Below, piece by piece: positions 1,781 through 38,960 of a stretch of 51,862 bases of DNA. Made by a program: the position numbers and the translations under genes. Each line of letters begins with the position of its first letter. Position 1 is the stretch's first letter. The stretch spans positions 1 through 51,862 of the forward strand of contig NZ_CACRUY010000038.1 in assembly GCF_902652685.1 (NCBI RefSeq), in the 5' to 3' direction. Below the pieces are notes generated by a model that was not told the origin of the DNA, ran no database searches, and saw only the letters and a program-made list of their open reading frames with translations. The DNA is from Mycobacterium sp. Marseille-P9652 (GTDB taxonomy: Bacteria; Actinomycetota; Actinomycetes; Mycobacteriales; Mycobacteriaceae).

Positions 1781-3169
1781 GTGCCTGTCGGTGGATCTGC
1801 ACTCTCGGCTCACGCTGCGGGCGTCGAACGGTTGATGGCGAGCTATCGTTCCATCCCGGCGACGTCCGTCGTCCGGCTAGCCAAACCCACCTCAAACCTG
1901 TTCCGCGACCGCGCGAAACGCGATGCGCGCGGCCTGGACACCTCAGGCCTGACCGGTGTCTTGTCGGTCGATCCGGAAGCGCGCACCGCCGACGTCGCGG
2001 GCATGTGCACCTACGAAGACCTGGTGGCCGCGACTCTGCCGTACGGACTTTCGCCACTGGTGGTACCGCAATTGAAGACGATCACCCTCGGCGGGGCGGT
2101 CAGCGGGTTGGGTATCGAGTCGGCGTCGTTCCGCAACGGCCTGCCGCATGAATCGGTACTGGAGATGGACATCCTCACCGGCACCGGCGAATTGGTCACC
2201 GCCTCGCGCGAGGAGCATTCCGATCTTTTCCGGGCTTTCCCGAATTCCTATGGCACGCTGGGGTATTCGACCCGTCTGCGGATCGAGCTCGAACCCGTCG
2301 CGCCGTTTGTGGCGTTGCGGCACGTGCGATTCCGCTCGTTGCCCGACCTCGTCGCGGCGATGGAACGCATCATCGACACCGGCGGGCAGGGCGGCACCCC
2401 GGTGGACTACCTCGACGGGGTGGTGTTCAGCCCCGACGAGAGTTACCTCTGCGTGGGCAGGCGAACCACCACGCCCGGACCGGTCAGCGACTACACCGGC
2501 AAGGACATCTACTACCAGTCCATCCGCCACGATTCACCCGGTGTCGAGGCCACCAAGGACGACCGCCTGACGATCCACGACTACTTCTGGCGCTGGGACA
2601 CCGACTGGTTCTGGTGCTCGCGCGCGTTCGGTGCCCAGGACCCACGCATCCGCCGGTGGTGGCCGCGCCGTTACCGGCGCAGCAGCTTCTACTGGAAGCT
2701 GGTGGCGCTCGACCAGCGCTACGGCATCGCCGACCGGATCGAGAAACGCAACGGCCGTCCGCCGCGGGAGCGGGTGGTGCAGGACGTCGAGGTGCCGGTC
2801 GAGCGGACCTGCGAGTTCCTCGAATGGTTCCTGGGCAACGTGCCGATCACCCCGATCTGGCTGTGCCCGCTGCGGCTGCGCGACAACGAAGGCTGGCCCC
2901 TCTATCCGATGCGACCCGACCACACCTACGTCAACGTCGGGTTCTGGTCGTCGGTCCCCGCCACCGGCACCGAAGGCGCCACCAACCGCTCGATCGAGAA
3001 GAAGGTGAGCGAGCTCGACGGACACAAGTCGCTGTACTCCGACTCCTTTTACACCCGCGAGGAGTTTGACGAGCTCTACGGCGGGGAGGCATACAACACG
3101 GTCAAGAAGACCTACGATCCCGACTCACGGCTCCTCGATCTCTACGCGAAGGCGGTGCAACGGCGATGA
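1781..3169 (+). CDS. FAD-binding oxidoreductase, Rv3719 type (DHCR24/TmsA-like)
   Basis: A flavoprotein of the PCMH/FAD_binding_4 type, 462 residues from the GTG at 1781. Motifs include VRLAKPTSNLF, a central flavin segment (LKTITLGGAVSGLGIESAS), FRNGLPHESVLEMDILTG and LFRAFPNSYGTLGYSTRLRI, all typical of the VAO fold. This is the arrangement of DHCR24-like sterol reductases and of TmsA, the reductase of tuberculostearic acid synthesis. Its stop overlaps the ATG of the methyltransferase gene (ATGA at 3166). In the tms pathway the methyltransferase adds a methylene group to a fatty acyl chain and the flavoprotein reduces it. I infer a comparable two-step modification here, with an unknown substrate. 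A longer start at 1661 is possible but unlikely. Confidence 0.82.
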   Translation: MPVGGSALSAHAAGVERLMASYRSIPATSVVRLAKPTSNLFRDRAKRDARGLDTSGLTGVLSVDPEARTADVAGMCTYEDLVAATLPYGLSPLVVPQLKTITLGGAVSGLGIESASFRNGLPHESVLEMDILTGTGELVTASREEHSDLFRAFPNSYGTLGYSTRLRIELEPVAPFVALRHVRFRSLPDLVAAMERIIDTGGQGGTPVDYLDGVVFSPDESYLCVGRRTTTPGPVSDYTGKDIYYQSIRHDSPGVEATKDDRLTIHDYFWRWDTDWFWCSRAFGAQDPRIRRWWPRRYRRSSFYWKLVALDQRYGIADRIEKRNGRPPRERVVQDVEVPVERTCEFLEWFLGNVPITPIWLCPLRLRDNEGWPLYPMRPDHTYVNVGFWSSVPATGTEGATNRSIEKKVSELDGHKSLYSDSFYTREEFDELYGGEAYNTVKKTYDPDSRLLDLYAKAVQRR

Positions 3170-4476
3170 CCACGACAAAAGCTTCGAGCCGCGCCACAAC
3201 CGGCAAGTTCAGCATGGCGGAGGTGCTCGAGATCTTCGCCGCAACCGGGCGTCACCCGCTCAAGTTCACGGCCTACGACGGCAGCACCGCCGGCAGCGAG
3301 GACGCCGAGCTGGGCCTGGACCTGCGCACGCCCCGCGGGGCCACCTATCTGGCCACGGCCCCCGGCGAGCTCGGCCTGGCCCGCGCGTACGTGTCGGGTG
3401 ACCTCGAGGTCACGGGCGTCCATCCCGGTGATCCGTACGAGTTGCTCAAGACGCTGACCGACCGGGTTCAGTTCAAGCGCCCGCCGGCGCGGGTGCTCGC
3501 CAACGTCGTGCGGTCCATCGGGGTCGAGCGCCTGGTGCCGGTCGCTCCCCCGCCTCAGGAGGCGCCTCCGCGGTGGCGCCGCGTCGCCGACGGGTTGATG
3601 CACAGCAAGACACGTGACGCCGAGGCCATCCACCACCACTACGACGTGTCGAACACCTTCTACGAGTGGGTGCTCGGCCCGTCGATGACCTACACCTGCG
3701 CGGTGTATCCCCACGCCGACGCCACCCTGGAAGAGGCGCAGGAGAACAAGTACCGGCTGGTGTTCGACAAGCTGCGGCTGCGGGCCGGCGACCGGCTGCT
3801 CGACGTCGGCTGCGGCTGGGGCGGCATGGTCCGGTACGCGGCGCGACGCGGCGTGCGCGTCATCGGCGCCACGCTGTCGGCCGAACAGGCCGCCTGGGCG
3901 CGCGCGGCCATCGCCGCCGAGGGGCTGCAGGAGCTGGCCGAGGTGCGGCATTCCGACTACCGCGACGTCGGCGAGTCGGACTTCGACGCCGTGTCGTCGA
4001 TCGGCTTGACCGAGCACATCGGCGTCAAGAACTATCCCGCCTACTTCGGCTTCCTCAAGTCGAAGCTGCGGACCGGCGGCCTGCTGCTCAACCACTGCAT
4101 CACCCGCCACGACAACAAGTCGACGTCGTTCGCGGGCGGCTTCACCGACCGCTACGTCTTCCCGGACGGGGAGCTGACCGGCTCCGGGCGGATCACCAGC
4201 GAAATCCAGGACATCGGGTTCGAGGTGGTGCACGCCGAGAACTTCCGGCACCACTACGCGATGACGCTGCGGGACTGGAACCGCAACCTGGTGGCGCACT
4301 GGGACGAGGCGGTCGCGGAGGTCGGTCTGGCCACCGCCAAGGTGTGGGGCCTGTACATGGCCGCCTCGCGGGTGGCGTTCGAGCAGAACAACCTGCAGTT
4401 GCACCACGTGCTGGCGGCGAACGTCGACCCGCGCGGCGGCGACGAGCTGCCACTTCGCCCGTGGTGGACGGCTTAG
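3166..4476 (+). CDS. SAM-dependent methyltransferase, cyclopropane-fatty-acid synthase family, Rv3720 type
   Basis: A 436-residue enzyme of the CFA/mycolic-acid synthase family, which transfers a methyl or methylene group from SAM to an unsaturated acyl chain. The N-terminal third (1-140) is the family's lipid-binding domain. The catalytic part has HHHYDVSNTFYEWVLG (156-171), TYTCAVY (175-181), the SAM motif LLDVGCGWGG (211-220) and IGLTEHIGVKNY. At 436 residues it has CfaS/TmsB length, longer than the roughly 290-residue mycolic acid cyclopropane synthases. It is translationally coupled to the upstream flavoprotein (ATGA) and ends four bases before the convergent dnaX stop. Confidence 0.87.
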   Translation: MTTTKASSRATTGKFSMAEVLEIFAATGRHPLKFTAYDGSTAGSEDAELGLDLRTPRGATYLATAPGELGLARAYVSGDLEVTGVHPGDPYELLKTLTDRVQFKRPPARVLANVVRSIGVERLVPVAPPPQEAPPRWRRVADGLMHSKTRDAEAIHHHYDVSNTFYEWVLGPSMTYTCAVYPHADATLEEAQENKYRLVFDKLRLRAGDRLLDVGCGWGGMVRYAARRGVRVIGATLSAEQAAWARAAIAAEGLQELAEVRHSDYRDVGESDFDAVSSIGLTEHIGVKNYPAYFGFLKSKLRTGGLLLNHCITRHDNKSTSFAGGFTDRYVFPDGELTGSGRITSEIQDIGFEVVHAENFRHHYAMTLRDWNRNLVAHWDEAVAEVGLATAKVWGLYMAASRVAFEQNNLQLHHVLAANVDPRGGDELPLRPWWTA

Positions 4477-4480
4477 CCGC

Positions 4481-6268
4481 CTAGCTGCCGTCTATCCGCC
4501 GCGCGCCCAGCTCGTTCTGCAGCAGTTCCAGTGCAGCCTCTTCGGGGTCGCGGCGGGGCACTGAGGGGTCGCTGCGGCCCGCCTCGGCCAGCATGTGTTC
4601 CTCTTCGTCACGCTGGGCCGCGTCGACCGCGGCGACGGGTTCCTCGGGTTGCGGCGGCGCGGGGGCCGGTTCGGCGGGCGCGGGACCGCCCGCCTCGCAA
4701 CGCACCCGCCAGTTGACGCCCAAGGCGTCCTTGAGCGCTTCGGCGATGACGTCGGCGTTGCGCTGCTCGCACAGCCGCTTGGCCAGCGGCGCCGACGCGT
4801 GGGTCAGCACGAGAGTGTTGTCCTCGACCGCGCGGACCGTGGCCCCGGCCAGCATCACCTCGGTGGTGCGGCTGCGCTGGCGCACCTTGTCGCGCACCGT
4901 CGGCCACATCGTCCGCACCGCTGACGCGTTGAGCTCGCCGGGGGCAGCGACCGGCTCGAAAACCGGCTCGGGCGCGGGAGGCTCGGGCGCGGGAGCCGGC
5001 TCGGGCTCCGGGGCCGGCTTGGGTGCGCGCCGGGGCTCGGCCTTCGGTTCGGGCGCCCGTCGCGGCGGCGGCGCGGGCTGGGCGACGGGGGTTGGGGCGT
5101 CCTGCGGTACCGAGATGGCCAGCCGGGTCTCGATCCGCTCGACGCGTTGCAGCAGCGCCGATTCGGCGTCGCTGGCCGACGGCAGCAGCAACCGCGCGCA
5201 GACGACCTCCAGGAGCAGCCGCGGCGCCGTCGCCCCGCGCATCTCCCCCAGACCGGCCTGCACCACCTCGGCGTAGCGGGTCAGCGTGCCGGGGCCGATC
5301 CGGGCCGCCTGATCGCGCATCCGGTCCAGCACGTCCTCGGGCGCATCCACCACGCCGCGGCTCGCCGCGTCGGGAACGGCCTGTAGCAGCAGCAGGTCGC
5401 GGAACCGCTCCAGCAGGTCGGTGGCGAAGCGCCGCGGGTCATGGCCGGCGTCGATCACGGACTCGACCGCTCCGAACAACGCGGCGGCGTCCGACGCGGC
5501 GAGGGCGTCGACGGCGTCGTCGATCAGCGCGACGTCGGTGGCGCCCAGCAGACCCAGCGCGCGCGGGTACGTCACATGGGCGTTCTCCGCGCCCGCCAGG
5601 AGCTGATCCAGCACCGACAGCGTGTCGCGGGGCGAGCCGCCGCCGGCCCGGATCACCAGCGGGTACACCGCGTCGTCGACGACGACGTTCTCCTGCTCGC
5701 AGATGCGCCCGATCAGCGCGCGCATGGTCTTGGGCGGCAGCAGCCGGAACGGGTAGTGGTGGGTGCGCGACCGGATCGTCGGCAGCACCTTCTCCGGCTC
5801 GGTGGTCGCGAAGATGAAGATGAGGTGTTCGGGCGGCTCCTCGACGATCTTGAGCAGCGCGTTGAAGCCCGCGGTGGTCACCATGTGGGCCTCGTCGATG
5901 ATGAACACGCGGTAGCGGGACTGCGCCGGGGCGTAGAAGGCGCGGTCGCGCAGCTCGCGGGTGTCGTCCACGCCGCCGTGGCTGGCGGCGTCGAGCTCGA
6001 CGACGTCGATGCTGCCCGGCGCGTTGGGGGCGAGCGCCTGGCAGGAATCGCAGACCCCGCACGGAGTGGCCGTCGGCCCCTGCACACAGTTCAGGGAACG
6101 GGCCAGGATGCGCGCCGAGGACGTCTTCCCGCAGCCGCGCGGCCCGGAGAACAGGTAGGCGTGGTTGATCCGGCCGGCCTCCAGCGCGATGGACAGCGGT
6201 TCGGTGACATGCTCCTGTCCCACCACCTCGGCGAACGTCGCCGGTCGGTACTTCCGGTAGAGGGCCAC
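4481..6268 (-). CDS. dnaX: DNA polymerase III subunits gamma/tau
   Basis: The clamp-loader ATPase that loads the beta clamp and tethers polymerase III. The 595-residue product has Walker A GPRGCGKT (42-49), zinc cysteines Cys61, Cys70, Cys73 and Cys76, Walker B VFIIDEAH (121-128), sensor 1 FIFATTEPEKVLPTIRSRT and the AAA lid domain. A Pro/Ala/Glu-rich linker (about 390-445) leads to the tau-type domain (SAVRTMWPTVRDKVRQRSRT), then another Pro/Ala-rich stretch and an acidic tail. The start is GTG at 6268. It lies downstream of the aminotransferase on the same strand, separated by a strong inverted repeat. I see no obvious slippery A/T run of the kind that makes gamma in Escherichia coli, so only the full-length form is predicted. 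Confidence 0.97.
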   Translation of the reverse strand: MALYRKYRPATFAEVVGQEHVTEPLSIALEAGRINHAYLFSGPRGCGKTSSARILARSLNCVQGPTATPCGVCDSCQALAPNAPGSIDVVELDAASHGGVDDTRELRDRAFYAPAQSRYRVFIIDEAHMVTTAGFNALLKIVEEPPEHLIFIFATTEPEKVLPTIRSRTHHYPFRLLPPKTMRALIGRICEQENVVVDDAVYPLVIRAGGGSPRDTLSVLDQLLAGAENAHVTYPRALGLLGATDVALIDDAVDALAASDAAALFGAVESVIDAGHDPRRFATDLLERFRDLLLLQAVPDAASRGVVDAPEDVLDRMRDQAARIGPGTLTRYAEVVQAGLGEMRGATAPRLLLEVVCARLLLPSASDAESALLQRVERIETRLAISVPQDAPTPVAQPAPPPRRAPEPKAEPRRAPKPAPEPEPAPAPEPPAPEPVFEPVAAPGELNASAVRTMWPTVRDKVRQRSRTTEVMLAGATVRAVEDNTLVLTHASAPLAKRLCEQRNADVIAEALKDALGVNWRVRCEAGGPAPAEPAPAPPQPEEPVAAVDAAQRDEEEHMLAEAGRSDPSVPRRDPEEAALELLQNELGARRIDGS

Positions 6269-6317
6269 GGTCAGCAGGCTACCGACGACCGGTGACGAAG
6301 GCCCGCCGGGCGTCGAA

Positions 6318-7669
<1,352 letters not shown>

Positions 7670-7673
7670 CTAC

Positions 7674-7709
7674 GGTGGCGATCGCAAGCGCGGCGGTGGG
7701 GGTACCCCC
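7674..7709. repeat. Dispersed repeat core plus GGGGGTACCCCC palindrome
   Basis: The 21 bases 7674-7694 (GGTGGCGATCGCAAGCGCGG plus one) recur in reverse complement inside the 67-bp tandem repeat at 39004-39024 and 39071-39091. They are followed by the perfect palindrome GGGGGTACCCCC at 7698-7709. The element occupies the short gap between the aminotransferase start and the SRP RNA. Confidence 0.6.
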
Positions 7710-7754
7710 GCGAAGCTGGGGGACCGGGCGCTGCGGGTCGCCACCCAAACACTA

Positions 7755-7845
7755 AGGGGACCCCGCGCACCCGACAGAGCCCATTGACCCTTGCTGCCTT
7801 CCGGCCCTGGGGGAGTTCACAGGATAGACGCCGCGCGGGGTCCTC
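7755..7845 (-). ncRNA. ffs: Signal recognition particle RNA, small bacterial 4.5S type
   Basis: Read on the minus strand, the segment has the conserved SRP apical core CAGGGCCGGAAGGCAGCAAG (reverse complement of about 7791-7809), with the GGAA tetraloop and the Ffh-binding internal loops. The ends pair: GGACCCCGCGC at the 5' side with GCGCGGGGUCC at the 3' side. The RNA forms the signal recognition particle with Ffh, targeting membrane and secreted proteins. Its position between the aspartate aminotransferase and a serine tRNA matches other mycobacteria. The ends are estimated from the closing stem. Confidence 0.92.
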
Positions 7846-7915
7846 CGGCGAGTCTAATACCTGACCGAAAGCGACTACCGAGGGCGGCCGTGAGGCGCTC
7901 GGCTACCATGGCCAC

Positions 7916-8004
7916 GGAGGATTCGCCTAGTGGCCTATGGCGCTCGCCTGGAACGCGGGTTGGGTTAACAGCCCTCGCGGGTTCAAATCCCGCATCCTCC
8001 GCCA
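7916..8004 (+). tRNA. tRNA-Ser (GGA)
   Basis: A complete cloverleaf with a long variable arm. Acceptor GGAGGAT (7916-7922) pairs with ATCCTCC (7994-8000), followed by the discriminator G and an encoded CCA (8002-8004). The D stem is GCC/GGC. The anticodon stem is CUCGC/GCGGG with loop CTGGAAC, giving anticodon GGA at 7950-7952 (serine codons UCC/UCU). The T arm is GCGGG-TTCAAAT-CCCGC. TACCAT at 7904-7909 could be its -10, which would put the start of transcription at or next to the mature 5' end. Confidence 0.96.
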
Positions 8005-8094
8005 GTTGTCCGCCACGCGGACATGCACGATATGGGTTCGCAATCGGGTCGGTCCCCTTTAGGCTCGCGTGAACCGACCGGCATGAGGAGGGGT

Positions 8095-8925
8095 ATGGGC
8101 CGCAAGGTCGCCATACTGTGGCACGCGTCGTTTTCCATCGCGGCCGGCGTCCTCTACTTCTTCTTCGTGCTGCCCCGCTGGCACGAGTTGATGGGTGACA
8201 CCAGCCATGGGCTCGGCACGACGCTTCGGATTGTCACGGGCGCGCTGATCGCGCTGGCCGCGCTGCCAGTGGTGTTCACGCTGCTGCGGACCCGCAAGCC
8301 GGAGCTGGGCACCCCGCAACTGGCCCTGTCGATCAGGCTGTGGTCGATCGTGGCCCATGTGCTGTCGGGCGTGCTGATCATCGGCACCGCCATCAGCGAG
8401 ATCTGGCTGAGCCTCGACACCGCCGGGCGGTACCTGTTCGCGGTCTACGGCGCCGCCGCAGCCATCGGTGTCCTCGGGTTCCTCGCGTTCTACCTGTCCT
8501 TCGTCGCGGAGCTGCCCCCGCCACCGCCCAAACCGATCAAGCCGAAGAAGGCCAAGGAACCCCGGAAGCGAGGCGTTCGCCGCAAGAAGGCCGAGCTCGA
8601 CGACGTCGACGAGGCCACCGAAGACGACGACTCGGAGACCACCGAGGAGTCGGAGGAGCCCGCGACCGTCGAGGCCGATGCTCCCGACGCGATCGAGGCG
8701 ACCGAGGAAGCCGAACCGGCCGAGGCGGAAGAGGCGGCTGAGGAGCCCACCGAGGCCACCGCCGACACCAGCGAGGCGGCGGACGAAACGGCCGAGACGG
8801 ACGAGGACACGGACGAGCCCCGCAGCGGGCTGCGCAACCGCCGCCCGACCGGCAAGGGCACCCACCGCATGCGCCGCCGGCGCACCCGGGGCGGCGTGGC
8901 GGTCGACGAGGCCCCCGCCGAATAG
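8095..8925 (+). CDS. Four-helix membrane protein with long charged C-terminal tail (Rv3723 position)
   Basis: A 276-residue protein. Four hydrophobic helices lie at about 7-26, 45-63, 82-100 and 112-134. A proline run (ELPPPPPKP) and a basic patch (KPKKAKEPRKRGVRRKK) follow, then about 85 mostly Asp/Glu/Ala/Thr residues and a basic end (HRMRRRRTRGG). The tail is presumably cytoplasmic, disordered and polyampholytic. The function is unknown; its place after tRNA-Ser matches Rv3723. The ATG at 8095 was chosen because AGGAGGGG (8086-8093) precedes it, although the spacing is short; 8083 (MRRGMG) is the alternative. TAGGCT at 8060-8065 may be the -10. Confidence 0.8.
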   Translation: MGRKVAILWHASFSIAAGVLYFFFVLPRWHELMGDTSHGLGTTLRIVTGALIALAALPVVFTLLRTRKPELGTPQLALSIRLWSIVAHVLSGVLIIGTAISEIWLSLDTAGRYLFAVYGAAAAIGVLGFLAFYLSFVAELPPPPPKPIKPKKAKEPRKRGVRRKKAELDDVDEATEDDDSETTEESEEPATVEADAPDAIEATEEAEPAEAEEAAEEPTEATADTSEAADETAETDEDTDEPRSGLRNRRPTGKGTHRMRRRRTRGGVAVDEAPAE

Positions 8926-8926
8926 G

Positions 8927-9673
8927 TCAGTCGCGGCGCCGAAGGCGCTCGACGTAGTCGGCCAGGTGCCGCCGGGTTTCGTCGGCGCCCCACATCCGGC
9001 TCACCTCGGCGTCCACGGCGCCGCCGGCACGGATCCGCGAAATCGTCGGCGCCCGCAGCTGCGACTTGGTGTGGCGGTAGGCCTCGGCGGGGATGCCGGC
9101 GAGGTCGGTCGCCTCGGCCACGGCCGCCTCCACGAGGTCGTCGGTGACGACCCGATGCGCGAGCCCGGCCGCGACGGCCTCGGGCCCGCGGTAGGTGCGG
9201 CCCCCGAGCAGAACCTCTTCGACCCGGTCGCCGCACGCGTGGCGCATCACCTCGAGCGCGGCGACGGGAAACGGCACGCCCACACGCACCTCGGAGGCCC
9301 CGATCTGGGCCTCGGGGGCGGCGAGGCGCCGGTCGCAGGCGCACGCGAGTACGCACCCGCCCGCGATGGCGGCGCCGTTGACCGCTGCGACGGTCGGAGC
9401 GGGATAGCAGAACAGCGCCTCGAATGCGGCGGACAGCGCGGGGATCAGTCGGTCCGTGTACTCGGCGCCCCCCTGCACCACACGGTTGAGGTCGACCCCG
9501 GCGCTGAAGACGCGCCCCTCCCCGGTGACGACCAGCGCGCCGGCTCCCGCGCGCGCCAGGTCGCCGACTGCGAGGGTGAGCTCCTCGAGCAGCTCGACGT
9601 CGAGGGCGTTGACGCGGCCCGACGACAGCGAGAGCACCTGAACGCTTCCGGCCGTGTGGACTTCGATCATCAT
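8927..9673 (-). CDS. Enoyl-CoA hydratase/isomerase family protein
   Basis: A 248-residue crotonase-fold protein, likely acting on an acyl-CoA. The oxyanion-hole segments are visible as GEGRVFSAGVDLNRV and NGAAIAGGCVLACACDRRLA, followed by IGASEVRVGVPFPVAALE. The usual second catalytic glutamate (the E of a GCGG-type loop) is not evident, so hydratase, isomerase or another crotonase reaction cannot be told apart. Its ATG (9671-9673) overlaps the stop of the upstream ParB-like gene in ATGA, so the two are translationally coupled. It converges on the membrane protein gene with one base between the stops. Confidence 0.83.
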   Translation of the reverse strand: MMIEVHTAGSVQVLSLSSGRVNALDVELLEELTLAVGDLARAGAGALVVTGEGRVFSAGVDLNRVVQGGAEYTDRLIPALSAAFEALFCYPAPTVAAVNGAAIAGGCVLACACDRRLAAPEAQIGASEVRVGVPFPVAALEVMRHACGDRVEEVLLGGRTYRGPEAVAAGLAHRVVTDDLVEAAVAEATDLAGIPAEAYRHTKSQLRAPTISRIRAGGAVDAEVSRMWGADETRRHLADYVERLRRRD

Positions 9674-10050
9674 CGGCTCGCTACGGCGAGGACGACGGGG
9701 ATGTCGGTGTTCTCGTCGGTGTGGTAGCTGGCGCACACGCGGTGGTAGCCGTCGGCGATCTGCAGCGGCACCCCGGTCACGAAGTCGCCGCGTACCAGCA
9801 GGATGGGCGAGAGCGGTTGCCCCTTCTTGACCTTGGCGAGGTCGGCGGCGACGTGCGGATTGTCCTCGGGCAGCAGGCTCAGCTGCGCCGCCCGCAGGAT
9901 GTCCTTGGCTTTCTTGTGCACGATGCCCCCGGCCCGCAGCCGCTGCGTCAACTCGTCGACGGTATGTGAATCCGCAAGCAGGGCAAGGTAATCGGCGGCC
10001 GCAGGAAAGTCGTGGGCCTCGGGTTTGTCCAACCACTTGACGCTGGGCAC
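9670..10050 (-). CDS. Small ParB/sulfiredoxin-fold-like protein
   Basis: A 126-residue protein starting at GTG 10050, with GGGAG eight bases upstream. The N-terminal half is helical (FPAAADYLALLADSHTVDELTQRL). The second half has PILLVRGDFV, then LQIADGYHRVCASYH and IPVVLA. The DGYHR segment resembles the G-x-H-R signature of the ParB/Srx nucleotide-binding fold. I do not know its function. No parA-like partner or parS-like site is apparent, so a chromosome-partition role is unlikely. It is coupled to the crotonase gene by ATGA, which suggests they act together. Confidence 0.7.
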   Translation of the reverse strand: MPSVKWLDKPEAHDFPAAADYLALLADSHTVDELTQRLRAGGIVHKKAKDILRAAQLSLLPEDNPHVAADLAKVKKGQPLSPILLVRGDFVTGVPLQIADGYHRVCASYHTDENTDIPVVLAVASR

Positions 10051-10192
10051 TGCGGGTCTCCCTTCATCGCGCCGACACCGAGGCAGCCTACCGACTGCGG
10101 CGACGGAATTTGGGATCGGTAGCGGCCCCGACGATCTGTACTTGCTCCCATGTCGACGCCATTGGGGCGGCGCATGAGGAAAGGGAATCTCG

Positions 10193-10681
10193 GTGAAACG
10201 TCTTCTCGCGGCTGCGATCGGAACACTTGGCTGCGCCACGGCTTCGCTGGCGCTGGTGGGTTGCTCGGACGGCGGCCACACGGCCGGCCCGGCCTCGAGC
10301 ACGGCACCCAGCGTGGCCACCGGCACGGGCGCGCAGGTGAAGGTGGGCGGCACCGACCTGGCGGGCGTCGATCCCGCTTCGGTGACGTGCGTCAAGACCG
10401 GCGGCAAGATCAACATCGGCAGCGGGTCCACCGGCGGTCGGCAGGCGCTGGCCGTCGTCATGACCGACGAGGCGACCCCCAAGGTCGAGTCGCTGGCGCT
10501 CGTCGTCGACGGCAACGCGCTGTCGGTCGCCAACAACATGGGCGCCAAGGTCGGATCGGCCAACGTGGCGGTGGACGGCAAGACCTACACCATCACCGGC
10601 CAGGCGCAGGGCGCCGACCTGAAGAACCCGATGGCCGGGATGATCACCAAGGACTTCAACATCAAGGTGTCCTGCGGGTGA
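10193..10681 (+). CDS. LpqH/19-kDa family lipoprotein
   Basis: A 162-residue exported lipoprotein. The signal peptide starts MKRLLAAAIG and ends in the lipobox LVGC, with Cys24 as the predicted acylated residue. A Ser/Thr/Gly/Ala-rich linker leads to the LpqH domain: VKVGGTDLAGVDPASVTCVKT, INIGSG, YTITGQAQG and a C-terminal IKVSCG. Two cysteines in the domain probably form the family disulfide. The start is GTG at 10193, preceded by GAGGAAAGGG (10176-10185). Members sit on the outer face of the membrane and cell envelope, and are TLR2 agonists. A perfect hairpin follows the stop. Confidence 0.9.
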   Translation: MKRLLAAAIGTLGCATASLALVGCSDGGHTAGPASSTAPSVATGTGAQVKVGGTDLAGVDPASVTCVKTGGKINIGSGSTGGRQALAVVMTDEATPKVESLALVVDGNALSVANNMGAKVGSANVAVDGKTYTITGQAQGADLKNPMAGMITKDFNIKVSCG

Positions 10682-10692
10682 TCGGTTGAACT

Positions 10693-10732
10693 CCGGAGCG
10701 GCGGACGTGCCCCCCAACGTCCGCCGCTCCGG
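10693..10732 (+). terminator. Perfect 16-bp inverted repeat after the lipoprotein gene
   Basis: CCGGAGCGGCGGACGT (10693-10708) is perfectly repeated in reverse complement at 10717-10732, with an 8-base loop. There is no U tract; it is followed by CTTATGATG, which contains the -10 of the next gene. It is likely a GC-rich terminator insulating the lipoprotein from the CHAT island. Confidence 0.7.
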
Positions 10733-10734
10733 CT

Positions 10735-10746
10735 TATGATGCTGCC
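10735..10746 (+). promoter_or_regulatory. Putative -10 of a leaderless promoter for the CHAT operon
   Basis: TATGAT at 10735-10740, five of six matches to TATAAT, then six bases, then the GTG at 10747. It directly abuts the terminator stem, so the -35 region lies within the hairpin sequence. No Shine-Dalgarno sequence is present. Confidence 0.5.
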
Positions 10747-12459
10747 GTGTCGATCCCCGGTGAACTGGAGCGCGCACGTCACCTGGCGTTCGCCGCCGAC
10801 GAGGCCGGCGCCCGGGACCTGCTGCTGTCCCTGATACCCGGGATCGAGCGTGAGGACCGTGACGACCTGATGCTGGAAGTGCTTGCCCAGCTTGGCGACA
10901 TCTATCTCGCCCGCGGGGCGCACGACGGGGTGCGTGAGTCGGTCCTGCGCATCCGCGACTGCCTCGCCACCTACGCCGCGATCGCCGCCGGCGCCATGCC
11001 CGAAGCCGCCGGGCGGGTACGCATGTCGGATGCCGAAGTGGCGCACATGACGTGCCGCTACTCGCGTCGGGCCGGGTTCCTGGAGACGGGCCTGGCCGCG
11101 GCGCTGGGGGACCACGAGGGCGCCGCGACCGCGCTCGCGGCACTCGACGACATGGGATCGGACGAGTTCGGCGACCTCGCAGACGAATTCGCATCTCTGC
11201 GGTGTCACGCGCGCGTGCTCTGTGCGACCGCGCTCTGCGACGACGATCTGCACGTACGCTCGGTTCCGTTGTGGGACGAGGTACTTCGCACTCTGGAGGA
11301 CGCCCGCTGCCCCGACCACCTCAGGGTGTCCGCGGCCACCGCGTACGGCAGGTTCTGCGTCGAAACCGGACGACTGGCGGACGCCGAGCCGTGGCTGCGT
11401 CGCGCCGAGGCCCGGGCAGAAGCGAACGGCTGGGAATTGGCCAGAGCCACCGCTCAATTGGAGCGCGCCGCGGGGTGCTGGGCGGCGAACGACCACACGA
11501 CGACCGAGCGGCTGGTTTCGGAGGCCTACCCGGTGATCGCCCGTTACGCCCGCGCGCACGACATGGCCCGGTGCTGGCTCTACCAGGGCCTGACCCGGCT
11601 GGGGTCCGGCGCGCTCGAGGCGGCCGACGAGTGCTGGCAGCACGCCGAGCGGCACTGGCGGGAGTTGGGCAAGCCGTTGTACCTGCACCGGATTTTGTTG
11701 CAGCGCAGTTGGATTCCGATCTTCTGGGGCCGCTTCGCGACGGCGGTCGAGCTGATCGCCCAGGCGCGCGAGGTGCTCGACTCGTCGCCGCGCAGCACGT
11801 GGCTGCAGTACGCCAGGCTCGACAACCACCTGGGCACCGTGTGGCGCGCGGACGCGCTGACCGACCTCGGCTTCGACGCCTCCGGCGACCCGGACGAGAC
11901 GCTGCAGGAAACCGAAGCGCGGCAGGCCGAGTCGCTCGGCGTCCTCGTCGGCGAGGTCGGCACGCCGGAGTATCACCGCGGGCTGGCCAAGCTCGAACAG
12001 GCCGCCGAACTGAAGGTGCCGGCGGCCCTGGCGGTGGACTCGGTGCGGTATGCGATCGCCGACCCCGACGCGCGGGCGCGCTGGGCGGCCGGCGTGGCCG
12101 CGCCGATGCTGGCCGGCGCCTTCGCCGTGGCGTGGGAGTGGGAGAACACCCAACTGGTCAGCGAGCTCGTCGAATACCACAGCGCCCGAGGGACATTCGA
12201 TACCGAGGCGAAAGGGCCGGCCTCCGGTGAATGGGCGTCGACGGCCACCGCGGCGGTGCCCGTGGACGCCGCCGATGCCCTTGCCGCGGCCGCCCCACCC
12301 GTGCGGGGAGCGGGGGTGCTGACAAGGCTCGGGCCGCTGCCCCCGCTGCAGATGCAGCCGGACGCGCCGCCGATCCTCAGTCACTACCGTGGGCTGGCAT
12401 TCGAACGCTACGGTCGCGAGGTCACCGCGGCCGAGCCCGCCTGGTCGACGTGGCCGTGA
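10747..12459 (+). CDS. Large helical-repeat (TPR-like) protein coupled to a CHAT protease
   Basis: A 570-residue, almost wholly helical protein. Paired helices of about 34-40 residues recur, for example TGRLADAEPWLRRAEARAE, WCHA-type turns and GRFATAVELIAQAREVL, consistent with degenerate tetratricopeptide repeats over roughly residues 20-400. The C-terminal 90 residues are Pro/Ala-rich, with LTRLGPLPPLQMQPDAPP. No signal peptide or membrane helix is seen. The stop overlaps the GTG of the CHAT gene (GTGA at 12456), so the pair is translationally coupled. TPR-like proteins next to caspase-like proteases commonly act as sensors or as the protease's partner; that role is inferred here. Start at GTG 10747. 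Confidence 0.78.
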   Translation: MSIPGELERARHLAFAADEAGARDLLLSLIPGIEREDRDDLMLEVLAQLGDIYLARGAHDGVRESVLRIRDCLATYAAIAAGAMPEAAGRVRMSDAEVAHMTCRYSRRAGFLETGLAAALGDHEGAATALAALDDMGSDEFGDLADEFASLRCHARVLCATALCDDDLHVRSVPLWDEVLRTLEDARCPDHLRVSAATAYGRFCVETGRLADAEPWLRRAEARAEANGWELARATAQLERAAGCWAANDHTTTERLVSEAYPVIARYARAHDMARCWLYQGLTRLGSGALEAADECWQHAERHWRELGKPLYLHRILLQRSWIPIFWGRFATAVELIAQAREVLDSSPRSTWLQYARLDNHLGTVWRADALTDLGFDASGDPDETLQETEARQAESLGVLVGEVGTPEYHRGLAKLEQAAELKVPAALAVDSVRYAIADPDARARWAAGVAAPMLAGAFAVAWEWENTQLVSELVEYHSARGTFDTEAKGPASGEWASTATAAVPVDAADALAAAAPPVRGAGVLTRLGPLPPLQMQPDAPPILSHYRGLAFERYGREVTAAEPAWSTWP

Positions 12460-13793
12460 GCGAGCGCCTGACGCTGGTCCTGCGGTACGCCGACCTCGGC
12501 ATCGCCACCTACGCCAGCCTGCGTATCGTCGGGCAGCCCGCGCGGACGGTCACCTGGGTGGTCGAGGAACCCATTCTGCTGGCGGCGCTGCAGGAGCTCA
12601 CCGACGCCCTGCCCGAGCCGCACGGCGGCGAGACCCTGCGCGACGCGATCGAAAGGGCCTTGACCCGGGGAGCTTTCGCCCGGCCCGACACCGAGCTCAC
12701 GGTGGCCTACATCCTCGGCGTGCTGTTGATCGGGGCGGCCGGGTGGCAGCTGCTGACCGAGTGCGCGGCGACGCCGCGCGCGACGCTGTTCGTGTCGCCC
12801 AGTGCGCGGCTTGCGCGGGTCCCGTGGGGCCTGCTGTCCCTGCCGAAGTCGGGTCCGAGCAAGGAAGAGCTGGTGCGCGCCCGCCAGGAGGCGATTACGC
12901 CCGACGGCCGGGTGGCCGCGCGTATCCCGTGGCAGCTGGCCGACATTCGCGAACACACCGACGGGTATCGGCTCATGGAGATGGTGGACGTGCTGATGGC
13001 GCCCCCCCAGAACATCGTGCACTCCGCGCGGGCGGCGGCGCGCTGGGACGACAGGAAGGGCCACCCGCCCGCGCTCGTCCTGGATCCGCGGGTGCCCGGC
13101 CAGCTGCCGGACTCCCCGCTCGGCTCGGTCCTCGGGCGGCCCTCGCCGCAGACACCGCTGGCGCTGCATTACACCGACCTGATGCGGCGCCGCCCCGTGT
13201 TGCCCGCCGTCGACGGTGCGGTGGATCTGTTCCGCCGCCGCGACGCCGACCGCACCTGGCTGCAGACGCTCCTGGCGCAGGCGCCCAGCCGGCTGGTGTA
13301 CGTCGGCCACGCCAGCTCGGCCGAGGGGCGGGCGGACCGCGCCGCCCTGCATCTGGCCTGTACGGCCGCGGCGCCGGGCGACGCCGAGCCCATCGGCGAC
13401 CACCGGCCGCTGACGGCGTCCGACCTGATGTCCTCGAAGGTGCCGATGCCGCCGCGCGTCGCCATGCTGGCGTGCGGTTCGGGCGGCGACTACCAGTTCG
13501 ACGAGGCCACCGGCCTGGTGGCGGCCGTGATCCTGGCCGGGGCCCAGGTGGTGACCGCCACGCTATGGTCGCTGCCGACCACCGCGGCGTATCGGCAATT
13601 CGCGGGCGGATCGAGCGACCCGATGTCGGACCTCGTCATCGCCGTGGACACCGCACACCAGGAGGCCGACGCCGGTTGCGCGGTGAACCGGTGGCAGCGC
13701 GCGCAGATGCGGCGCTGGCGCGACGGCGACACCGCCGCCAGCCCGCTGTACTGGGCGGCCCTGGTCACGTTCACCGTGGACGGCGCGCGGTAG
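12456..13793 (+). CDS. CHAT-domain (caspase-like) cysteine protease
   Basis: A 445-residue protein. The N-terminal 110 residues are a separate helical/beta region. The CHAT domain starts near ATLFVSPSARLARVPWGLLS (110-129). The catalytic histidine is His285 in LVYVGHASS and the catalytic cysteine Cys340 in VAMLACGSGG. These are followed by the family segment GLVAAVILAGAQVVTATLW (353-371) and the terminal SPLYWAALVTF. Both catalytic residues are intact, so activity is expected. CHAT proteases are relatives of separase and caspases that in bacteria act in defence and cell-death systems such as gasdermin or Craspase cascades. No gasdermin is visible here. It is coupled to the upstream TPR-like gene; the substrate is unknown. 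Confidence 0.88.
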   Translation: MSERLTLVLRYADLGIATYASLRIVGQPARTVTWVVEEPILLAALQELTDALPEPHGGETLRDAIERALTRGAFARPDTELTVAYILGVLLIGAAGWQLLTECAATPRATLFVSPSARLARVPWGLLSLPKSGPSKEELVRARQEAITPDGRVAARIPWQLADIREHTDGYRLMEMVDVLMAPPQNIVHSARAAARWDDRKGHPPALVLDPRVPGQLPDSPLGSVLGRPSPQTPLALHYTDLMRRRPVLPAVDGAVDLFRRRDADRTWLQTLLAQAPSRLVYVGHASSAEGRADRAALHLACTAAAPGDAEPIGDHRPLTASDLMSSKVPMPPRVAMLACGSGGDYQFDEATGLVAAVILAGAQVVTATLWSLPTTAAYRQFAGGSSDPMSDLVIAVDTAHQEADAGCAVNRWQRAQMRRWRDGDTAASPLYWAALVTFTVDGAR

Positions 13794-13794
13794 C

Positions 13795-14112
13795 TCAAAC
13801 CGCGACCGGCCAGGAGGCGTGCACGGCCAGCACGTCGTCGGGCAACGAGAGTTGTTCTCGCGCAGCGGGATCGAACGCCACCAGCACGACGAGTCCCGGG
13901 CGCAGCATCGACAGGTCCGGCCCGTCGCCGCAGCGGGCCAGTTTGCCGATGAACGTCTCCCCCGACACGGCCACCACCTCGACGAAGACCTGTCGCTCGT
14001 CGGCGGCGGTCGCGCGGACGGTGCCGACCCCGACGGTGCGGCCGTGCGATGCCCGACGCCGGGCGGACACGAAGCGGCGGGCGCGTTCTGCGAGCCTGGT
14101 CAGCGAATTCAT
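13795..14112 (-). CDS. Small unrecognised protein inside the CHAT island
   Basis: A 105-residue protein from the ATG at 14112, which fits better than the longer start at 14151. The first 25 residues are basic and helical (LTRLAERARRFVSARRRAS). The rest alternates beta strands (VGVGTVRA, QVFVEVVAVSGETFIGKLA, LRPGLVVLVAFDP), suggesting a small beta-barrel. It faces the CHAT gene with one base between stops and diverges from the next gene, 83 bp away. Small partner proteins occur in CHAT/TPR conflict operons, but the opposite strand here argues for separate control. Function unknown. Confidence 0.65.
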   Translation of the reverse strand: MNSLTRLAERARRFVSARRRASHGRTVGVGTVRATAADERQVFVEVVAVSGETFIGKLARCGDGPDLSMLRPGLVVLVAFDPAAREQLSLPDDVLAVHASWPVAV

Positions 14113-14183
14113 GCGACCAGAATCGCGACGCCGGCCGGCTACCGAACCCAACTTTTCGGCTGCCGGATTCTCGGCGATCCCCC

Positions 14184-14195
14184 TATCCTGTCCAG
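14184..14195 (+). promoter_or_regulatory. Putative -10 of a leaderless promoter for the second half of the island
   Basis: TATCCT at 14184-14189, six bases (GTCCAG), then ATG at 14196. This is the same layout as in front of the TPR-like gene 3.4 kb upstream. Confidence 0.5.
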
Positions 14196-15515
14196 ATGAG
14201 CGCGGATTCGCCGGTGGCGACTGCCATCGCGGGGGGGCATCCCCGCCGGTCGGTCATCGACCGGGCGTGGCGGGCGATCGGCCCCGGCGTGGAGGTGCTC
14301 AGCAGCGACGACGGCGGCCCGTTGACCCGCACCGTCAAGCGCATCATCGACCCGTTGGTGCTCCGGCTGCGCTCGAATCCCCAGTACTCCGCCCCGGTCG
14401 TCACGCCGGATACGGCCACGGCGATGCACGACCTGATCGTCGGGAGCGGCAGCGAGTTACGTTCGGCCGCAGCATGGTTCGAGGCTCTCAAGCTGGAGCG
14501 CCGCAGGCAGCGGATTCGCACGGGGAACGCCCAGGAGCTGTACTTCCCGGTGTGCTTCGAGCTGGCGGTCACCAAGGGGCCGCCCGGGCCGCACGACCAC
14601 CAGACGGCCGCCGCCGTGCTCGCCGACATCCACCAGGGCCGCGACCGCACCGCGATCGAGGTGTTGCACGAATACGTGGCCGACCCAGGCGTTGTCGCCA
14701 CGCTGGTCGAACAGCTCGACCGCAGTTGGCGCGACGTGCAACCGGGCGAGACGGTGACCGGCCCGTTCCTGGCCGAGCTCGCCACGGTGCTGGGGCCGGC
14801 GCACGGCCACAGTGCCACGACGGCCCGGCAGCGGGTGTGGTCGGCCATGATCGCCGACGCCACCCCCTACAACCTCGGCGCGCTGGCCCACACCGAATCG
14901 GACGCGCTGCCGTGGTCGATCGTCGAGCTCGGGCTGAGTTCGGCTGCCCCGCAACGACAGCCGTGCATCGCCGGCGGCTCCGACAGCGACCGGCCCCTGG
15001 ACCGCACCGTCGTGGACCGGGTGCGGGGGACGCTGCGGCGCGCGCTGGATCGCGACGCGCTGCCCGACATCCCGCTGCTGTGCGAAGAAGAGGTCGACCG
15101 CGCGTGCGCGCCGTGGGGTCTGCTGAGCGAGGACAAGCAGGCCACGCTGGTCGCAGGCATCGAGGTCGCGGTCGATCTCGCGCCGCTGGACCAATCCGTA
15201 TGCAGCCGTTACGCGTTGGGCGCGCAGATTCAGGCGCGCCTGCGCAAGGAGGCGTACGTGCTGCACGCCCGGCGCTACCTCGCCGAGGGCGGCCCGATCC
15301 ATCCCCGGCAGCGGCAGGTGGTCGAGGACCTCGCCGCGTACGCCCAGCCGTACCTCAGCCGGCTGTGGGCGCGCCTGCATGGGCGCGACGTGTGGCAGGA
15401 ACCCTGTGACGACGTCGACGACGTGCGGTCGCTGCTCGAGGGGGTAGCGCGGTCGGTGAGCCTCGACCACCGGCAGCGCATCAAGGCGATGCTCGAACTG
15501 CAGGTGGCCGGATGA
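14196..15515 (+). CDS. Unrecognised helical protein of the CHAT island
   Basis: A 439-residue, soluble, mostly helical protein with no signal peptide or membrane segment. It has ELYFPVCFELAVTKGPPGP near 105-130, an Arg-rich helix (LKLERRRQRIRTG) and a C-terminal helical region (QARLRKEAYVLHARRYLAEG; YAQPYLSRLWARLHGRD). I recognise no catalytic motif. Its stop overlaps the ATG of the next gene (ATGA at 15512), so the two are co-translated. It may be an adaptor or effector of the CHAT system or merely a neighbour; the shared promoter style and tight packing favour the former. The longer start at 14049 is rejected because it would run through the divergent gene. Confidence 0.7.
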   Translation: MSADSPVATAIAGGHPRRSVIDRAWRAIGPGVEVLSSDDGGPLTRTVKRIIDPLVLRLRSNPQYSAPVVTPDTATAMHDLIVGSGSELRSAAAWFEALKLERRRQRIRTGNAQELYFPVCFELAVTKGPPGPHDHQTAAAVLADIHQGRDRTAIEVLHEYVADPGVVATLVEQLDRSWRDVQPGETVTGPFLAELATVLGPAHGHSATTARQRVWSAMIADATPYNLGALAHTESDALPWSIVELGLSSAAPQRQPCIAGGSDSDRPLDRTVVDRVRGTLRRALDRDALPDIPLLCEEEVDRACAPWGLLSEDKQATLVAGIEVAVDLAPLDQSVCSRYALGAQIQARLRKEAYVLHARRYLAEGGPIHPRQRQVVEDLAAYAQPYLSRLWARLHGRDVWQEPCDDVDDVRSLLEGVARSVSLDHRQRIKAMLELQVAG

Positions 15516-16645
15516 GATTGGTCGCCGATTCCGGTCTGTGGAGCACGGGGGCGTCACCCGGCGCGACGCCGCTGGTCGCGGTTCTGGAGGTCAGTGGCGC
15601 CGTCCTGTCCTGGGTCGTCGACGAGCGACCGGACAACGCGCCCGTCGGGATCACGTTCACCGATGTGGTCCGGGCGGACTGGCTTTGGCGTGTCGTCGGC
15701 GACGCCGGGCACGTCGCCATCGCCTCCGCCGTGGCCGGGGTCGACGAACCCGGCGGCCTGGACATCGCCGGCGTCGACATCTCGCCGTCGGCCGTCGCAC
15801 CTCTGCGCAGGCTCGCCGTCGGGCACTGGTTGCGGCGGTGGTGGCCCGCCAGCGGCCGCGATGCGATCCCGCTTCTCGACCACGCGCTGCTCGACGCCGA
15901 GATCGCGTTGCTCACCGCGCGCGCGCAGGGCTACTTCTCCGACGACACGCTCGATTCGGACGTGACCGAACTGCTCGCCCCGCACGGCGCCGCGTTGCTG
16001 GCACACGTGCGTGACGGCGACCCCCGGGTGATCGAATTGATCCGCGCGGCAGCGGAATTGGCCGACGAGGTCGGCGTCGAAGGCCCCGAGTGGGCGGACC
16101 TGTTGTCCGCCCTGGACGATCCGGTTCCCCTCGCGGAACCGGCGGGCGGGCGCCGCGACGACTACGCGCTGGCCGCCGGGCGCGACGGTGGCCCACCCGG
16201 CGCCGCGATAGCCCGCGGCCTCGCGTCCATCACCTGGAGCGCGGTTCCGGCCCAGGTGTTCGACGCGGCCGAGGACACGGTCGAGTGGACGATCGAGGCG
16301 GAGGACGGGGCCGCGATCGCGGTCGTGCGGGCGGCGACCGTGGGACCGGGGCGGCCCACCGGCATCGCGGTGCGCCTGCGGTCGGGCGATATCACCGGCG
16401 CGGGCGCGCTGGACGCCGACGGTCGCGCCGTCCTGCCACTGGTCGACTCCCGGAACCGGCCGGCCACGGAGGCGGCCGCCTGGGGCCACGATTGGTCGGC
16501 GACCTCGGTGCTCGTCGGCGCCGACGCGGCGGAGGAGACGCCCGCCCTGCGCGAGCGGGTCCGCCGGTGGGCACGCGCGCGGATCGACCGGCCGGCCGAC
16601 GACGCGTTCCTCGCCGAGATCCTGGCGTCGGAGTCGTCCTACTGA
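15512..16645 (+). CDS. Unrecognised protein of the CHAT island, beta-rich C-terminal half
   Basis: A 377-residue protein. The first 65 residues contain strands (PLVAVLEVSGAVLSWVVDER; GHVAIASAVAG). A helical middle (HWLRRWWPASGRD; LLDHALLDAEIALLTARAQG) follows. The last 150 residues are beta-rich (TVEWTIEAEDGAAIAVVRAA; TGIAVRLRSGDITGAG; WSATSVLVGAD), perhaps a carbohydrate- or protein-binding sandwich. It ends in a basic helix (RERVRRWARARID). No signal peptide or known active site. It is translationally coupled to the preceding gene and ends about 50 bp before the promoter of a DapB-like gene. Function unknown. Confidence 0.68.
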   Translation: MRLVADSGLWSTGASPGATPLVAVLEVSGAVLSWVVDERPDNAPVGITFTDVVRADWLWRVVGDAGHVAIASAVAGVDEPGGLDIAGVDISPSAVAPLRRLAVGHWLRRWWPASGRDAIPLLDHALLDAEIALLTARAQGYFSDDTLDSDVTELLAPHGAALLAHVRDGDPRVIELIRAAAELADEVGVEGPEWADLLSALDDPVPLAEPAGGRRDDYALAAGRDGGPPGAAIARGLASITWSAVPAQVFDAAEDTVEWTIEAEDGAAIAVVRAATVGPGRPTGIAVRLRSGDITGAGALDADGRAVLPLVDSRNRPATEAAAWGHDWSATSVLVGADAAEETPALRERVRRWARARIDRPADDAFLAEILASESSY

Positions 16646-37659: not shown

Positions 37660-38886
37660 CTACACCGCGACCGTCAGCTCCGACAGTCCGCGCAGCGTGA
37701 CGTTCGCCTTATACTGCGGATCGCCGGCCAGGCGGGCATGCGGGAAGCGCCCGGCGACGGCCGACAGGGCGACCCCCGCCTCCAGCCGCGCCAGCGGCGC
37801 GCCCAGGCAGTAGTGAATGCCACGCCCAAAGCCTAGGTGGCGCAACGCATTCCGCTCGGGGTCGAAGGTGTCCGGCCGGTCGAACTCGGCGGGGTCGCGC
37901 TGGGCCACGGCCAGCAGCAGCATCATGATGTCGCCCGCGGGCACGTCGACGCCGCCGATCGTCACGTCGGCGAGGGCGACCCGGCTGACGAGTTGCACCG
38001 GCGGGTCGTAACGCAGCGTCTCCTCGACGATCAGCGGCGCACGCCCGGGATCTGCGCCCAACGCCGTCCAGTGCCGCGGATTGCGGAGCATCGCCAGGAC
38101 GGCGTTCCCGATCAGGTTGACGGTCGTCTCGTGCCCCGCGATCAGCAGCAGGTTGCAGGTGGAGACGATCTCGTCCTCGGTCAGCTGATCACCGGACTCT
38201 TCCACCGCGATCAGCCCCGACAGGAGATCGTCGCCGGGTTCGGACCGGCGCCGCTCGATGAGGCCGTGAAAGTAGTTGCGCAGCCACGTCACCGCCTCGA
38301 TCCGAGCGTTCACCACGTCCTGGGGAACGCCGACGACCGTCGAGAACGGGTCCAACGCCTGCGCCAGTACCGCCGACGCACGGCTGAACTGGGGCTCGTC
38401 GTCGAGCGGCACGCCGAGCAGCCGACAGATCACGGCCACAGGTAGCGGGTAGGCGAAGTCCTCGACGACGTCGAACTCGCCCCGGTCGGCGATCCGGTCG
38501 AGCAACCCGGCCACCAGCGACTCGATCCCGGGCTGCAGGGCGTTGACCACCCTCGGCACGAAAGCCTTGCTCACCAGCCTCCGCAGCCGCGTGTGATCGG
38601 GCGGATCGAGGAACAAGAACCCGGGCGGGAACGGCCGGCGCCGCCACACGCCGGCCTCGATCTGCCGCCTGGCGACCGTCGAGTTCATGTTGTCGCTGCT
38701 CGACGACGGGTGCCGCAGCACGTCGTCGCAGTCGCGGTAGCTCGAGAAGACAACGAGGTTGGCGTCGGACAGTTGCACCGGTCCGTGGTCACGGAACTCG
38801 GCGCCCAGCCGATAGGGGTCGGCGCGATTGGCCGGATCCATCAGCCGCAGCAGCATCGCCCTGGAATGGGCCTGCGCCGCCGTCAT
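37660..38886 (-). CDS. Cytochrome P450
   Basis: A 408-residue class I P450. The I helix has LLIAGHETTVNLIGN, the K helix EETLRYDPPVQ, and the heme ligand is Cys360 in FGRGIHYCLGAPLARLEAG. PDHTRLRRLVSKAFVPR and the PF..PGFLFLDPP segment fit CYP107/CYP140-like bacterial P450s; the family is not certain. It is monocistronic on the minus strand, upstream of nothing obvious, and does not resemble the P450 at 25192 closely. Substrate unknown. Confidence 0.92.
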   Translation of the reverse strand: MTAAQAHSRAMLLRLMDPANRADPYRLGAEFRDHGPVQLSDANLVVFSSYRDCDDVLRHPSSSSDNMNSTVARRQIEAGVWRRRPFPPGFLFLDPPDHTRLRRLVSKAFVPRVVNALQPGIESLVAGLLDRIADRGEFDVVEDFAYPLPVAVICRLLGVPLDDEPQFSRASAVLAQALDPFSTVVGVPQDVVNARIEAVTWLRNYFHGLIERRRSEPGDDLLSGLIAVEESGDQLTEDEIVSTCNLLLIAGHETTVNLIGNAVLAMLRNPRHWTALGADPGRAPLIVEETLRYDPPVQLVSRVALADVTIGGVDVPAGDIMMLLLAVAQRDPAEFDRPDTFDPERNALRHLGFGRGIHYCLGAPLARLEAGVALSAVAGRFPHARLAGDPQYKANVTLRGLSELTVAV

Positions 38887-38960
38887 GGGACCATTCTGCC
38901 CGTCCCGGGAGCGGCGCCTTGGAAACCCGAGGTCGCGGCCTGCCGAAGGCGGCGCTCAGT

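Follow-up and report, generated by a model that had tools for sequence, protein, structure and literature searches.

Four neighbouring genes, which encode a tetratricopeptide repeat (TPR)-type protein, a CHAT protease and two proteins of no recognised family (here termed P4 and P5), constitute a co-inherited module in mycobacteria and their relatives. The module was analysed in contig NZ_CACRUY010000038.1 of Mycobacterium sp. Marseille-P9652 (assembly GCF_902652685.1), a stretch of 51,862 nucleotides hereafter called the window, in which a gene for a small protein, P3, lies in convergent orientation between the TPR-CHAT pair and the P4-P5 pair. We assign a probability of roughly 0.55 to the reading that these genes encode a four-protein protease module, mostly vertically inherited, in which the TPR protein gates CHAT and P4-P5 is the dedicated partner, whatever the purpose of the system. 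The gene set around this caspase-like protease is apparently undescribed, as no description of it was recognised in the open-access literature searched (in some searches, among the top matches only). It represents a testable bacterial protease-signalling system and not a recent foreign insert; a role in conflict is possible.

Linkage, co-inheritance and chromosomal sites

Two sets of loci were compared. The mycobacterial set comprised the best 80 of 467 P4 relatives from one scan of named genomes, and was fetched with two patterns, one of which was the P4 motif LWxR[LIV]HG. The distant set comprised 37 loci outside the genus that were chosen for holding P4, 34 from genomes and three from plasmid records, with some broken frames in L057, L199 and L206; left out of this set were L195 (genome G165), which has a 49-residue P4-like match only, and L070 (G101), L214 (G813) and L215 (G767), which have no module protein. 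CHAT, P4 and P5 are all present in each of the 80 mycobacterial loci. In the distant set, all 37 loci have P5, 35 have CHAT and 34 have TPR. Two loci at contig ends (L063 and L198) and L067, described below, account for the absences. The linkage persists to approximately 35% identity in P4, on chromosomes and on plasmids.

The survey of co-occurrence across mycobacteria that the initial annotation had proposed identified matches to both CHAT and P4 in 95 of 148 genomes of the genus, some copies being broken, with CHAT in 96 and P4 in 101 of these genomes. CHAT alone was found only in G003, as a marginal match of 70 residues, and P4 alone in G005 (contig end), G086 and G101 (marginal matches) and G104, G105 and G129 (remnants). 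The family tally, 52 of 251 genomes, takes in the marginal G101 and G165. A phylum-wide search of 346 genomes, an undercount since five candidates were scored per genome, identified P5 in at least 7 genomes, the same 7 that have strong P4 matches; two further P4 matches were marginal and had no module protein nearby. The initial annotation had raised the possibility that the neighbours of the CHAT gene are unrelated and not conserved beside it; the opposite was found, P4, P5 and TPR being a set that is kept with CHAT.

The arrangement of the genes varies among groups. In the sister genus, represented by L068 and other loci, the genes are ordered as in mycobacteria. Loci that we take to be Nocardia- or Rhodococcus-like (genus names of distant-locus genomes were assigned by recognition rather than by search), in which P4 identity is 36-41%, have the order P4-P5-TPR-CHAT in a single direction, as does a named Nocardia farcinica record (L192); L060 departs from this order, with TPR on the opposite strand and CHAT beyond TPR. 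In three of the Nocardia/Rhodococcus-like loci, TPR and CHAT are separated by 2.6 kb: in L062, genes for AhpC and an AhpF-like reductase lie between them (12112-14439), and a gap of similar size is seen in L208 and L209. This insertion possibly reflects a link to peroxide stress, or arose by chance.

Five Streptomyces megaplasmid records carry P4 at approximately 35% identity, and two of them were opened. One (L191) encodes P4-P5-TPR-CHAT as four genes, whereas in the other, a plasmid of Streptomyces NBC_01237 (L190), TPR and CHAT form a single open reading frame of 978 residues, which ties TPR to CHAT. Pfam reports TPR and no CHAT at E 0.01 in this fusion; its CHAT part was called because it is 53% identical to that of the Nocardia type. 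In L067, relatives of P4 (approximately 26% identity) and P5 (approximately 30%) follow a C14 caspase (PF00656, 2.4e-9) that stands in place of CHAT, with no TPR match; through this exchange, P4-P5 is linked to a protease of the caspase clan. The caspase, P4 and P5 genes of L067 are followed by two more family-less proteins, with a gene for a coupling protein of type IV secretion system (T4SS) type and a JAB-ThiF (E1-like) protein nearby (5728-15605); no second close copy of its P5 was found in 301 family genomes, for each of which few candidates were scored.

Across 105 loci, the distance matrices of P4, P5, TPR and CHAT are concordant: Mantel r was 0.969-0.991 in the five protein pairs tested, with 0 of 499 permutations reaching such values, and 0.949-0.983 when the comparison was confined to the 31 loci not among the 80; L206, L057 and L199, which have broken or short frames, and any locus without all four proteins were omitted from this test. 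Ratios of median nonsynonymous (dN) to median synonymous (dS) divergence against the window genes, calculated from 58-60 loci, were approximately 0.15 for P4, 0.18 for CHAT, 0.19 for TPR, 0.31 for P5 and 0.34 for P3, indicating purifying selection on all five. At the first of the two main chromosomal sites described below, median identity to the window was 84.6% for P4, 77.0% for CHAT, 74.4% for TPR and 63.8% for P5, compared with 84.5% for dnaX and 91.1% for the Rv3722-like aminotransferase; P4 is thus conserved like dnaX, and P5 far less.

The initial annotation had described the block as an island that interrupts the Rv3723-cut5 gene order after a tRNA gene. The block does lie between an Rv3723-like gene and a cutinase (cut5-like) gene, but the reading of an insertion did not stand: 55 of the 80 mycobacterial loci have the dnaX/Rv3722/Rv3723 flank and 4 the cut5/Rv3725 flank only, and because these 59 share the site and two genomes show remains there, "lost elsewhere" describes the situation better than "interrupts". 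Of the remaining loci, 19 lie at uvrA/lysX and 2 at neither site. The site survey covered 91 loci (the 80 plus 11 further), or 90, as L074 and L142 are identical in sequence. The labels uvrA, lysX, infC, rplT, Rv3723 and Rv3725 are presumptive, having been given by recognition rather than by search, while the flanking dnaX, Rv3722-like aminotransferase, cutinase, enoyl-CoA hydratase and beta-lactamase-like genes were checked with Pfam. A tRNA-Ser gene is indeed located upstream, but it is separated from the block by other genes and has no duplicated end, and copies of it elsewhere in the window do not exceed 11 nucleotides. No direct repeats of 22 nucleotides or more bound the block, and the Pfam scan found no mobility gene among ten neighbouring genes. 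The guanine-cytosine (GC) content of the block is somewhat high (72.8% versus 69.0 +/- 1.7% for segments of equal length), whereas third-codon GC is native (four core genes, 0.88-0.94; P3, 0.86; flanks, 0.91-0.94).

Decayed copies were found as well. Pieces of P5, P4 and TPR remain in L071; a remnant at the uvrA site (L072) contains the end of P4 together with P5 in two frames, and one at the dnaX site (L073) contains the start of the lipoprotein gene and pieces of P4 and P5. These broken remains in three genomes indicate that, in some species, the absence of the block reflects loss in situ. Internal deletions occur in L218, and the frame breaks in L217 and L216 are possibly sequencing errors. 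In L071 (4409-8386), a cutinase gene likewise matches in two frames and adjoins a gene like that at 37660-38856 of the window. The shared sites, the lack of bounding repeats or a duplicated tRNA end, and the remnants in place led us to reject insertion of an island at the tRNA gene. Transposase genes adjoin L191, which makes mobility of the module on the Streptomyces plasmids probable.

The CHAT and TPR proteins and their partners

The CHAT domain of the window protein exceeds the Pfam cut-off (PF12770, 52.2 bits versus 24), and the catalytic dyad reported in the initial annotation was confirmed: His285 lies in YVGH and Cys340 in LACGSG. Both motifs are present in all 79 CHAT frames from the 80 mycobacterial loci. 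Among the 34 distant CHAT frames that reach 300 residues, 33 have them and one (L206) is frame-broken. CHAT is predicted to be proteolytically active. A CHAT profile searched against the PDB at E up to 10 returned eight sequences, all of which are Csx29, other CHAT proteins or separase; Csx29 was the nearest solved relative, at a non-significant E of 0.06. The TPR protein of the window has a weak Pfam TPR match below cut-off (E 0.0009-0.002), while its Nocardia-type relative matches TPR_12 at 1.4e-18 and the TPR part of the Streptomyces fusion is also firm.

A second CHAT locus (L233) is present in the same genome at C1:132000-148000, where a protein of 1163 residues, whose N-terminus appears caspase-like by eye, overlaps one of 1225 residues (1937-9102). 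The latter is approximately 38% identical to CATRA-associated TPR-CHAT proteins, and no match to P4 or P5 was found at this locus.

The statement of the initial annotation that P4 and P5 belong to no recognised family was borne out: searches of Pfam, NCBIfam and PADLOC gave no match to either protein above cut-off, and the same was true in Pfam for ten P4 and ten P5 relatives. P4 and P5 profiles, built from 10 and subsequently from 24 and 27 sequences, gave nothing significant against the PDB, and comparison of the two profiles with each other revealed no relation. An assignment of P5 to Cdc6_lid was rejected, as the match (E 0.0024) is below cut-off and occurs in one of ten relatives, and the related NCBIfam match is weaker (0.093). 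The P4 motif LWxR[LIV]HG occurs in 114 of 116 sequences, a count driven in part by selection because this motif served to fetch the 80 loci; P5 contains WWP in all 114 sequences. Of the 114 P5 sequences, 112 have Phe or Tyr as the C-terminal residue, possibly a docking tail. In a Kyte-Doolittle scan, P5 has one marginal hydrophobic stretch (residues 18-36, mean 1.75) and P4 has none.

The small convergent protein P3, listed as part of the block in the initial annotation, is not supported as a core component, being present in 66 of the 80 mycobacterial loci. It has no Pfam match above cut-off, but in a small comparison it aligned at 37% identity (E 1.5e-6) with the soluble part of a membrane protein encoded at the same place and in the same direction in the sister genus (L068). 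For that protein and three others like it, DUF3592 is the sole Pfam match. P3 is probably a soluble DUF3592-like domain of the membrane protein that occupies its place in the sister genus, the link being probable and unproven because every DUF3592 match is below the curated cut-off. Matches like DUF3592 or P3 were found in 27 of the 37 distant loci. A further neighbour, the gene for an LpqH-type lipoprotein, lies outside the span given in the initial annotation, and accompanies the module across different chromosomal sites: it is present in 75 of the 80 mycobacterial loci, the other 5 having the module near a contig end, and in 30 of the 37 distant loci, being absent near contig ends in L063, L197 and L198 and also from L067, L190, L191 and L210.

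Proposed mechanism and alternatives

We infer gating by TPR, a substrate role for P4 or P5 and a link to the envelope in the following manner. The TPR protein is a probable sensor or regulator that would hold or gate CHAT, like the TPR part of Csx29, a model borrowed from Craspase as described in excerpts of PMC9729208 and PMC10028731. CHAT would cut once TPR senses a trigger, and the translationally coupled P4 and P5 may form a complex that CHAT cleaves as a signal, or an adaptor that positions CHAT. The trigger or the output may lie at the cell envelope, a placement suggested because the LpqH-type lipoprotein and the DUF3592-like membrane protein often adjoin the module.

Several observations weigh against this interpretation. 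The caspase swap and the TPR-CHAT fusion were found at one locus each. The CHAT profile, which takes in three CHAT domains of CATRA type, has PDB matches that are not significant (E 0.06-0.29), and no PDB match at E up to 1 was obtained when the window CHAT was searched alone. Each half of the module has its own promoter in the window. Some complete loci lack the LpqH and DUF3592-like genes, so that a link to the envelope is not obligatory. Finally, the identities of the module genes to the window correlate only modestly with those of dnaX and Rv3722 (Spearman -0.15 to 0.68); vertical inheritance is therefore supported more by position than by distances, and local exchange within the genus may have occurred.

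Two known types of CHAT system other than CATRA offer comparisons. In Craspase (type III-E CRISPR), according to excerpts of PMC9729208 and PMC10028731, a signal goes through the TPR part to CHAT, which cuts Csx30, a sigma-factor inhibitor. Csx29 of Craspase shares with the present module TPR plus CHAT with a His/Cys dyad and candidate substrates encoded at the locus, but the window contains no CRISPR-like repeat array, no Cas gene was found in the ten neighbouring genes scanned, and P4 and P5 are not significantly related to any PDB or Pfam entry. A protease likewise lies beside a possible substrate gene in those bacterial gasdermin operons that encode a CHAT or another protease (PMC9729208, in excerpt), whereas P4 and P5 match neither gasdermin nor any other Pfam family above cut-off. 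The initial annotation had stated that no gasdermin, reverse transcriptase or CRISPR effector is nearby, and this holds for the part of the window covered by Pfam, namely the five genes of the block, the lipoprotein gene and ten flanking genes, of 42 called.

An abortive-infection or conflict system, in which TPR would free CHAT upon invasion and cleavage of P4 or P5 would yield a growth-stopping product, is a possible explanation that we regard as tentative. CHAT and TPR recur in conflict systems, CATRA and Craspase among them (PMC9729208 and PMC10028731, in excerpt), Streptomyces megaplasmids carry the module with transposase genes beside L191, and in L067 the P4-P5 pair occurs with a caspase that matches a PADLOC caspase model, near the T4SS-type coupling gene and the JAB-ThiF protein, which matches PADLOC E1-E2 models. 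However, no effector domain was detected in the 10 P4 and 10 P5 relatives or the Streptomyces pairs scanned, TPR, CHAT, P3, P4 and P5 have no PADLOC match, and P4 relatives are absent from 50,697 phage records and from viral contigs (the latter by a pattern-based search). In addition, most loci are chromosomal, at repeated sites and under purifying selection.

A separase-like proteolytic switch, fixed in the chromosomes of Mycobacteriales and serving normal physiology rather than phage defence, is a more speculative suggestion. An envelope signal, involving the LpqH-family lipoprotein and the DUF3592-like protein, would be read by TPR, upon which CHAT would cleave the P4-P5 complex. P4 and P5 were encountered only in this protease setting, and some lineages would have discarded the module.

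That the module is a variant of CATRA (CASPASE and TPR Repeat-Associated), with P4 and P5 as diverged CATRA proteins, is very unlikely. The resemblance noted in the initial annotation is genuine in part: CATRA systems likewise combine CHAT with TPR repeats near a dedicated partner in actinobacteria, and CHAT-plus-TPR proteins do sit beside CATRA genes. Eight CATRA regions were fetched and seven proteins scanned, of which four long ones (1242-1283 residues) all have CHAT and three have TPR matches; two CATRA proteins have CATRA-N (PF20269, confirmed by search), CATRA-C (PF20270) and a GT4-conflict domain. In contrast, TPR and CHAT are encoded separately, both in the window and, with one exception, in the relatives opened, and the scanned relatives have no GT4-type or other exchangeable effector domain. 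No CATRA-N or CATRA-C match was found in the ten P4 or ten P5 relatives with a library that detects CATRA-C in two CATRA proteins, and hhalign gave a probability of 0.3% or less against six CATRA-N-bearing proteins, with shallow profiles of 10 and 6 sequences. Of 148 class genomes searched, 7 have CATRA-N, all of them from outside the family of the window; it was not found in three genomes (G000, G351 and G359), that of the window included, although control genomes also gave no match in either search. Membership of CATRA was accordingly rejected: the protease is of the same kind, but the defining features fail. Chance adjacency of unrelated genes, which the separate promoters, the convergent gene between the halves and the varying order of the pairs might suggest, is contradicted by the deep linkage, the fusion, the co-inheritance and the joint decay, and can be dismissed.

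To our knowledge, the characterised bacterial CHAT proteases all lie within CRISPR or other defence loci. The protease described here is kept at repeated chromosomal sites through much of the genus and in its relatives, together with two partner families that lack known relatives, and a member of the LpqH antigen family is usually next door. The module thus offers four defined proteins with which to ask whether actinobacteria use caspase-like proteolysis for immunity or for routine signalling, and why some lineages deleted it.

Gene layout in the window

The genes and coordinates of TPR, CHAT, P3, P4 and P5 given in the initial annotation were all reproduced (Table 1), as were the couplings within the two pairs. 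The TPR stop and CHAT start codons share four nucleotides (GTGA), an overlap found in 62 of 77 mycobacterial loci, and the four-nucleotide overlap between P4 and P5 (ATGA) is kept in 76 of 77. Both plus-strand units begin with the same leaderless layout, as had been reported, with a TANNNT element that ends six nucleotides before each start codon. Across the mycobacterial loci, a TANNNT ending 5-8 nucleotides before the start codon was identified for 76 of 77 TPR genes (2.8% in shuffled sequence) and 78 of 80 P4 genes (5% in shuffled sequence).

Table 1. Coordinates of the module, its promoters and adjacent features in the window
Feature	Position	Strand	Remarks
tRNA-Ser	7916-8004		2.7 kb and four genes before the block
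LpqH-type (Myco_19_kDa, PF05481) lipoprotein gene	10193..10681	+	Pfam 9.9e-29; usual neighbour of the module
TATGAT, -10 element of leaderless promoter	10735..10740	+	6 nucleotides ahead of the TPR start codon
TPR-type gene, 570 residues	10747..12459	+	Weak Pfam TPR match; firm in relatives
CHAT protease gene, 445 residues, His285/Cys340 dyad	12456..13793	+	PF12770, 8.1e-14
P3, 105 residues, convergent gene	13795..14112	-	Likely DUF3592-like soluble domain
TATCCT, -10 element of leaderless promoter	14184..14189	+	6 nucleotides ahead of the P4 start codon
P4, 439 residues, family-less core component	14196..15515	+	Nothing above cut-off (Pfam, NCBIfam, PADLOC)
P5, 377 residues, family-less core component; WWP motif, C-terminal Phe/Tyr	15512..16645	+	

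Elsewhere in the window, a 67-nucleotide tandem duplication whose copies are 99% identical was identified at 38959-39092.

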